Shown one piece after another: positions 37,861-39,171 of a DNA stretch of 39,494 nt. The position numbers were made by a program, and so were the translations under genes. The stretch covers positions 1 through 39,494 of the forward strand of contig JAIWNF010000133.1 in assembly GCA_025093555.1 (NCBI GenBank). Reading direction: 5' to 3'. Source of the stretch: Circinella umbellata. Lineage: Eukaryota; Mucoromycota; Mucoromycetes; Mucorales; Lichtheimiaceae. The notes beneath the pieces are model-generated. The model was not told where the DNA came from and ran no database searches. It worked only from the letters and a program-made list of their open reading frames with translations. Every line of letters begins with the position of its first letter. The stretch's first letter is position 1.

Positions 37861-39171
37861 ATGTCAGCTCATCCATACATCAACATGCAAACTTATGACG
37901 GATATCTTGAAAACGCTGCGGACTTTGATGCGCGTTGTGCACGTGATACCACTGCAGTTCCTTCCATTATTGTCTTGTATCCTGAAGTCCATTATGGACT
38001 TGTGCGCCCAATTAACGTTTGTCAACGTTGTTTTGTACTTGGCAGGTTATGCTTCAATTTTTCTGCCAGAGAAACTGGTGGCAATAGATCTACTGGGCAT
38101 CGTTGTGATCAGTGTAGAATGGGGCATATAGCTGGTTGTTCCACTAACGATTATGCTACTAAGAGAGGTATACCATTAGCTCACCAATGGGTAATTAACC
38201 ATTCCTCAGTTAATACTGAGATGTTTTATCCATCTGTTTGGTATTATCGCCGTGTAATGCAAGCACATCGTACTGGTGAACAAATGGGTAGAGTATGTAC
38301 TGTTGCTGGTGCCGAGTTGCAAGAAAACGATGATAATTTTGTTGATCCTCCTGTATTGCCAAGATATAGAAATGGTATTGTTGTTGATTTTGGCTCATAC
38401 CAAAATTTGGTTGGTGTCTTGCCTACACCCTTGCCTTTGGGGTCAGCTCCAGCTAGAATTACTGGAAGTCTGACTTCAGTTGGAGTTCCTACTTTGGCTG
38501 AAAACCTGGTTTTTGTTGCCCCTGTTGAGGAGGAAATTGATGAATTGGATGATGATGATAATAATTCTGTTGCTGCTGCACCTAATGTCCGTCGTTCTGC
38601 TCGTCTTGGTCGTCGCCATGTCCCTTTTATGGGTGATCATATAGATGATGATGATCTTATTAATCCAGACTTGGACTTAGCTGAGTTTGATGATATGAAC
38701 TCAAAGGAACTAGCTGGTCTGGTTTCACCAGATGAGTTATTTGATAGAGAAGGTGTTGCTCCTCTGGCTGTCTTCCATTTTGATGGAACTCCTGATCCTG
38801 AACTCTGTGGTTCTTTTCCTGCTGGGCCTGATTATCCTATGCCTAGTCTTGATGATATAGTTGCTTCTGTTGGTTCTGGGTCTTATGCTTCCTCAGGTAT
38901 GCCTTCTGGTTCTTCTCATGGAACAACAACAAGTGAGAAACGTCGCCGAGTTGAACAGTTGGTTCAAAATCCTCCAAGTCCACAACAATCTCCTGTTGTC
39001 TCTCCCCCTCCAATCCGTTTAAGTCTGCCTCAGACCTCACTACCAACACCTGCAGAGGTGCCTTTGGTAGGAGGTGCTCCTACTCCCTTCTTCTTTGTCT
39101 TACCACCATCATGTGAAGTAGTGTTCACTCCACGTGGTTTCCATGTTGAACGTCTTGGTGATGATGTTTGA
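37861..39171 (+). CDS. Opposite-strand accessory protein of chromovirus B, Zn2Cys6-like, intact
   Basis: The frame is open to 37807 upstream, but the ATG at 37861 (MSAHPYINMQTYDGY) follows the pyrimidine tract and fits copy A, giving 436 residues. A cysteine cluster C-x2-C-x6-C-x17-C-x2-C-x7-C lies at about residues 57-98 (NVCQRCFVLGRLCFNF, then CDQCRMGHIAGC). Its spacing resembles fungal Zn2Cys6 binuclear clusters with a long loop, but it lacks their usual string of Lys/Arg. After it come IPLAHQWV, a PPVLPRYRNG motif, a basic patch VRRSARLGRRHVP between acidic runs, a Ser/Pro-rich part with SEKRRRVEQLV (possible nuclear signal), and a conserved tail (LPPSCEVVFTPRGFHV). It converges on pol and overlaps its end at 39030-39171. 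I know no named family. It may be a nuclear regulator carried by the element. Confidence 0.8.
   Translation: MSAHPYINMQTYDGYLENAADFDARCARDTTAVPSIIVLYPEVHYGLVRPINVCQRCFVLGRLCFNFSARETGGNRSTGHRCDQCRMGHIAGCSTNDYATKRGIPLAHQWVINHSSVNTEMFYPSVWYYRRVMQAHRTGEQMGRVCTVAGAELQENDDNFVDPPVLPRYRNGIVVDFGSYQNLVGVLPTPLPLGSAPARITGSLTSVGVPTLAENLVFVAPVEEEIDELDDDDNNSVAAAPNVRRSARLGRRHVPFMGDHIDDDDLINPDLDLAEFDDMNSKELAGLVSPDELFDREGVAPLAVFHFDGTPDPELCGSFPAGPDYPMPSLDDIVASVGSGSYASSGMPSGSSHGTTTSEKRRRVEQLVQNPPSPQQSPVVSPPPIRLSLPQTSLPTPAEVPLVGGAPTPFFFVLPPSCEVVFTPRGFHVERLGDDV

Follow-up and report, generated by a model that had tools for sequence, protein, structure and literature searches.

A copy-conserved antisense gene for a six-cysteine protein in Ty3/Gypsy chromoviruses of Circinella umbellata

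The DNA analysed here (the window) is a stretch of 39,494 nucleotides, contig JAIWNF010000133.1 of the fungus Circinella umbellata. Close to its right end lies the 3′ part of a long terminal repeat (LTR) retrotransposon, read on the minus strand, in which an open reading frame (ORF) is encoded on the opposite strand next to the pol gene. We refer to this antisense accessory gene as the aORF. The rest of the element, a member of what we call family A, is cut off by the contig end. The features of the locus are the following.

37241..37426, minus strand: 3′ LTR, TGTTACAG...CTATAACA, beginning with TGTTACAG at 37426 and matching the LTR pairs of the copies C175, C88 and C197
37438-37427, minus strand: polypurine tract AGAGGGGGAGAG, read from the sequence and identical in C175, C88, C197 and C123
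37439..37860, plus strand: spacer from polypurine tract to aORF, in places AT-rich or pyrimidine-rich; predicted aORF promoter
37861..39171, plus strand: aORF, ATG at 37861, stop codon ending at 39171, 436 codons plus stop
38020..38139, plus strand: six-cysteine cluster C-x2-C-x6-C-x17-C-x2-C-x7-C, residues 54-93, from a pattern scan and alignments
38587..38625, plus strand: basic patch RRSARLGRRH within acidic stretches, about residue 244
39082..39168, plus strand: conserved C-terminal tail FFFVLPP...RGF.VERLG, with counterparts in the related proteins P0003, P0006, P0008 and P0017 (alignment)
39030..39171, no strand: tail-to-tail overlap of pol and aORF, 142 bp, from the ORF coordinates (pol stop at 39030)
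39030..39494, minus strand: 3′ end of pol (integrase C-terminus), cut by the contig end, 97% to C88 pol
39240..39386, minus strand: chromodomain in the pol tail (PF00385, E 7.8e-17, residues 37-85)

A first-pass annotation made from the letters of the window had described an intact ORF of at least 436 codons running against the direction of the retrotransposon. Both points hold exactly, since the frame is open from ATG to stop on the plus strand while pol, polypurine tract and LTR are on the minus strand. The same annotation placed the ORF between the chromodomain and the polypurine tract; it does adjoin the polypurine tract and 3′ LTR, but it is not confined to the space between pol and the tract, because it overlaps pol. 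When 37427-39494 was shuffled 2000 times with its dinucleotide composition kept, no ATG ORF reached 436 codons (the longest had 229), which rules out a chance ORF. The longest ATG ORF on the strand opposite C88 pol has 59 codons. The GC content by codon position is 60/47/24% in the aORF and 50/37/28% in pol. The aORF thus has the codon-position composition of a gene and, together with the shuffling result, is more than chance. The same 436 codons are uninterrupted in the copies C175, C123 and C197 which, with the window, make up the four uninterrupted family-A copies.

Complete elements were found elsewhere in the genome. The C88 pol product (1282 aa) contains RVP_2, RVT_1, RT_RNaseH, Integrase_H2C2, rve, SH3_Tf2-1 and Chromo in a Pfam scan. 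The host element is therefore a Ty3/Gypsy chromovirus, with the order protease, reverse transcriptase, RNase H, integrase and a C-terminal chromodomain. All four complete elements examined have an LTR pair, a polypurine tract and a short target duplication. Three belong to family A (C175, C88 and C197; LTRs of 185 bp with 2, 1 and 4 mismatches respectively) and one, C155, to a second family, B (LTR of 212 bp, one mismatch). Their 5-bp target duplications are AAAAC (C175), TTTTC (C88), CTTGT (C197) and ATCAT (C155). Each of them encloses the aORF at the same place, after pol and before the 3′ LTR. The frame is intact in C175 and C197, whereas C88 has a frameshift and C155 a stop codon in it.

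A search of the genome, in which repeat counts are lower bounds, gave 23 aORF matches in 19 places. The aORF tail survives in ten of these places, and in all ten a convergent chromodomain pol faces it. The other nine are remnants cut before the tail, with no adjacent pol of the same clade in the stretch read. One small family-C fragment additionally lies in L027. The overlap of the two genes, 142 bp in the window, is shorter elsewhere: 46 bp in C133, a few bases in C15 and, in the C155 frame, where the pol tail contains an internal stop, about 85-88 bp. The aORF is a genuine element gene and, being present in most copies of the family, it is an antisense additional ORF between pol and the 3′ LTR (aORF-3R). 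The first-pass annotation had assigned it to the chromovirus, and the genome agrees: it is found again in further copies and in the other families, and is convergent with a chromodomain integrase wherever its tail survives. No host gene of this kind was found in this genome, where no tail-bearing copy lies apart from a chromodomain pol; relatives from Circinella minor and among ENA/lgn sequences are known from proteins alone.

Three diverged element families of C. umbellata, A, B and C, carry the aORF. Their integrases are 71-86% identical (a decayed family-B copy, B_C46, is 58-67% identical to A and C), and their antisense proteins 24-54%. The distance from the LTR to the aORF start codon is 434 bp in A, about 450 bp in B and 378 bp in C. 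Families B and C are closest to each other in both genes, with a support of 0.995 in the pol tree and agreeing aORF distances. A sister clade of five loci (C34, C162, C79, C53 and C197:36305) has integrases 53-59% identical to those of A, B and C and 42-43% to B_C46; a chromodomain piece is present in C34 and C53. No aORF was found beyond pol by tblastn (E 1e-3) in four of the five sister loci (all but C53, whose contig ends) or in C72. The aORF was likely gained in one ancestor of A, B and C, but a single gain is unproven because the node uniting the three families against the sister clade and outgroups has a support of only 0.32.

The relatives that are whole have 374-462 aa. All six cysteines are invariant in protein alignments of 15 and 16 rows, from which P0013 and P0016, lacking part of the cluster, were left out; the spacing is 2-6-(14 or 17)-2-7. 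An RRSxRL-like patch occurs in all six proteins scanned, altered in P0002 and in the C46 copy, and is likely a nuclear-localisation signal or nucleic-acid contact. Even P0017, at 29-32% identity, keeps the six cysteines, the patch and the tail. P0007 lacks the tail, the listed protein ending earlier. The cysteine pattern, the basic patch inside acidic runs and the conserved tail had all been read correctly in the first pass, the tail recurring in the proteins of other families. No strongly hydrophobic segment was found in the aORF protein.

The cluster had also been called Zn2Cys6-like. Zn2Cys6 clusters usually have the spacing C-x2-C-x6-C-x5..12-C-x2-C-x6..8-C and, in the Gal4-type pattern, a basic run that follows the second cysteine. 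The aORF protein is like them in the order of its six cysteines and in most spacings; it differs by its long third linker (14 or 17 residues in all six proteins scanned, the other spacings fitting) and by the lack of the basic run. The Pfam model Zn_clus (PF00172) matches 65 places of the genome at E ≤ 1, none of them an aORF. Two cluster pieces compared with it gave no match at E ≤ 10, although the HMMER filters drop most matches above 0.1. Membership was thus rejected at the level of the model, and on these comparisons the label describes a resemblance. The CxxC pairs make it plausible that the protein binds zinc. Separately, a host frame at C197:42346-42612 has two adjacent Zn_clus matches and is unrelated to the aORF.

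Among 5.8 billion proteins, relatives came only from Circinella and from ENA/lgn proteins; the reach of this search is limited by its word filter, and a search with P0017 gave only three proteins, all already known, and missed others. No Pfam family scored above cut-off with the aORF protein or four relatives, the best matches below it being MoaC (E 0.19, window protein) and TFIIF_alpha (E 0.023, P0003). A profile search found no relative in the PDB (best E 0.53). Pattern scans of IMG/VR and prokaryote genomes gave 45 and 59 matches respectively, none confirmed, as expected for a fungal element.

In order to evaluate selection on the protein, the ratio ω of nonsynonymous to synonymous divergence (dN/dS) was estimated between copies. 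In the N-terminal domain ω is 0.29 (A-B) and 0.26 (B-C), both at nearly saturated synonymous sites; between A and the older copy C142 (dS 0.51) it is 0.20. The A-C comparison is saturated and gives no value. A second alignment gave 0.17-0.53 for the N-terminus, all pairs with the misaligned row C_C133tail being excluded. These codon comparisons show that, between lineages, purifying selection has acted on the N-terminal domain. For pol, ω is 0.06-0.08. Among the four intact family-A copies, pooled ω is 0.72 in the N-terminus, 1.42 in the middle, 1.11 in the next region and 0.29 in the overlap. As a side observation, dS between C123 and C197 is 0.018 in the aORF and 0.034 in the pol tail, which may mean that the copies are mosaic. 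More widely, family-A dS is 0.011-0.018 in the aORF outside the overlap (six pairs) and 0.03-0.09 in the pol tail (three pairs, partly of other copies). The contrast, seen at L024, L025 and L026, hints that recombination or a template switch occurred close to where the two genes meet.

The organisation is of a known kind, while the protein family is apparently new. Circinella and Botrytis belong to different fungal phyla, and no Botrytis protein was among the 17 matches of one aORF protein search. In the literature, antisense genes between pol and the 3′ LTR are documented for the plant elements Grande, RIRE2 and Retand and for Boty of Botrytis (PMC7264820, PMC11963269). Like the aORF, Grande gene23, the RIRE2 ORF and the TRP28 (PF04195) ORFs of the Retand lineage are antisense, lie between pol and 3′ LTR and are conserved among copies. 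GENE23 is nuclear and its promoter lies upstream of the gene (PMC7264820); for TRP28, DNA binding is predicted (PMC11963269). Retand differs in being a non-chromovirus lineage, and TRP28 was not matched by the aORF protein or four relatives in Pfam scans. Boty brtn of Botrytis cinerea is an antisense extra gene of a fungal LTR element with a chromodomain in its gag-pol (PMC7264820, PMC4227169), and a review groups it with the antisense genes between pol and 3′ LTR (PMC7264820). The first-pass annotation knew of no opposite-strand ORF with a Zn2Cys6-like protein in fungal chromoviruses; an antisense gene as such in a fungal chromodomain element is already published. The aORF protein family appears new by sequence; BRTN, a possible homologue, was compared by description only. 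Neither a Zn2Cys6-like antisense gene of a fungal element nor this Circinella gene appeared among the open-licence titles and abstract beginnings listed, and a term search of a survey covering LTR elements in fungi (PMC3248453) gave no occurrence of "antisense".

Two further systems bear on function. The VANC proteins of Arabidopsis VANDAL transposons are transposon-encoded anti-silencing proteins that evolve with their target sequences (PMC5735166). They are a model for the proposed role of the aORF; they differ in belonging to plant transposons and are likened to it by that role alone. The antisense gene of human T-cell leukaemia virus (HTLV) likewise starts from the 3′ end of a retroelement on the other strand, with its promoter in the 3′ LTR (PMC7264820). 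The aORF differs here, as its promoter is predicted in the spacer. The HTLV gene is HBZ, which encodes a basic leucine zipper (bZIP) protein.

We tentatively propose, with somewhat less than even confidence, that the aORF is a chromovirus accessory gene whose six-cysteine protein is probably a nuclear factor that binds zinc and DNA, and would regulate transcription or silencing of the element. This proposal derives from the organisation, the composition and the parallels with GENE23 of Grande, TRP28 of Retand and VANC. A separate antisense mRNA would be made from a promoter in the 0.4-kb spacer. In its product the cysteines would hold zinc, the RRSxRL patch would serve nuclear import or nucleic-acid contact, and the acidic, proline- and serine-rich middle would have an effector function. 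Its target would be DNA of the element, in the LTR or the spacer, and the protein would be more likely to favour expression than to oppose it; the most likely effect would be to keep the element transcribed despite host silencing. The cost would be the production of RNA complementary to the genomic RNA.

Several observations weigh against such a regulator. The protein matches no Pfam family above cut-off, Zn_clus included, and no PDB entry, and AlphaFold2 models are unusable, being too poor for a fold search (predicted local distance difference test score, pLDDT, 32.5 for the whole protein and 38.6 for the N-terminus). Over all aligned codons the A-B ω is 0.49-0.70, so that constraint is shown mainly for the N-terminus, and the aORF protein exceeds pol in dN about four- to fivefold, so that its role may be dispensable or conditional. 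Fast evolution fits the tracking of changing targets or of host defence, and also weak constraint. The four intact family-A copies have ω of 0.31-2.1 outside the overlap on 10-23 differences, few in number, and show no sign of recent constraint. The C88 aORF is frameshifted beside a pol open over 1282 codons, and that of C155 contains a stop. The spacers are similar in length, but their sequence is little conserved in families B and C. Finally, no aORF was found in the 2.9 kb following the family-C pol of C48, which is cut short before the chromodomain.

The alternative that survives best, though unlikely, is a nucleic-acid chaperone or genomic-RNA export factor whose cysteine knuckles bind element RNA. 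CxxC pairs and a basic patch would suit RNA as well as DNA, and the retrotransposon Cer1 has an accessory protein, CERV, required for RNA export (PMC10309623). However, CERV is made from a spliced Cer1 mRNA (PMC10309623), whereas the aORF is on the opposite strand, and its protein matched no RNA-binding family in the Pfam scans.

Scarcely less favoured is a stronger form of the regulator proposal: a sequence-specific anti-silencing transcription factor whose zinc domain, with its six cysteines, is new and has no relation to Zn2Cys6, encoded on the opposite strand and co-evolving with the LTRs as a counterpart of VANC. We consider this unlikely in so specific a form. The 5′ edges of the LTRs of families A, B and C (window 37426 on the minus strand, L029:122, L035:1046 and L041) carry a short inverted repeat, for example TGTTAC-N7-GTAACA. 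As candidate targets of the aORF protein these repeats were set aside as unspecific; by eye, the C34 element, which lacks an aORF, has one too.

It is a little less probable again that the RNA, not the protein, matters. In that case convergent transcription over the pol tail would produce double-stranded RNA, feed host RNA interference (RNAi) and limit copy number. The tail-to-tail overlaps (142 bp in the window, smaller elsewhere) are in line with this, any aORF mRNA being complementary to the genomic RNA. RNAi pathways of Mucor target transposons (PMC11943222), and double-stranded RNA from such ORFs has been proposed for plants (PMC7264820). But the invariant cysteines, the codon-position composition and an N-terminal ω of 0.20-0.29 require a translated product.

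Quite improbable is a partner of the chromodomain integrase in integration-site choice or chromatin targeting. A chromodomain pol adjoins the aORF in all ten tail-bearing places and the acidic and basic tracts could contact chromatin, but the sister clade, where a chromodomain piece is seen in C34 and C53, has a related pol and, as far as its sequence was read, lacks the aORF. It is very improbable that the aORF has no role and is a passenger from the host or an antisense ORF arisen by chance: recent family-A copies have ω near 1, C88 has lost the frame beside an open pol, and the C. minor and ENA/lgn relatives come without genomic context, but the aORF has been kept in three families with near-saturated synonymous sites, is never found with its tail apart from pol in this genome, and is longer than anything the shuffles produced, which already refutes the chance half.

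Accessory genes on the antisense strand have turned up repeatedly, in Ty3 elements of plants, in Boty of Botrytis and in retroviruses, and their functions are mostly unestablished. The aORF lineage stands in one genome beside a sister pol clade that lacks the gene, a natural contrast for the benefit that it brings. If the zinc-binding regulator proposed above is real, it would add to VANC and HBZ-like proteins one more independent way for a mobile element to govern its expression. The cysteine domain, if new, may contribute another nucleic-acid-binding fold.

A second, decayed element of the same kind lies near the left end of the window.

1462..2626, plus strand: decayed family-B aORF with a stop after codon 133, 92-95% to P0003 in two pieces
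2608..5175, minus strand: decayed family-B pol with a partial chromodomain, convergent with the aORF at 1462..2626, 55-79% to C88 pol in four pieces, with Integrase_H2C2

Just outside the 3′ LTR of the family-A element, 37031-37240 has a 91-100% copy at 16794-17074, so that this element was likely inserted in another repeat. The window also holds an unrelated Ty3-type pol at 12775-15680 (minus strand), 23-35% identical to family-A pol, and a DDE transposase piece of the Plant_tran family at 22621-23292 (PF04827, E 1.5e-68). Terminal inverted repeats of 94 bp, 98% complementary, at 28238-28331 and 32126-32219 bound a unit of roughly 4 kb, in which there are a DDE_Tnp_4 piece at 31156-31647 and a long ORF of Ala-Pro repeats. 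From its appearance we take this unit to be a PIF/Harbinger-type element.
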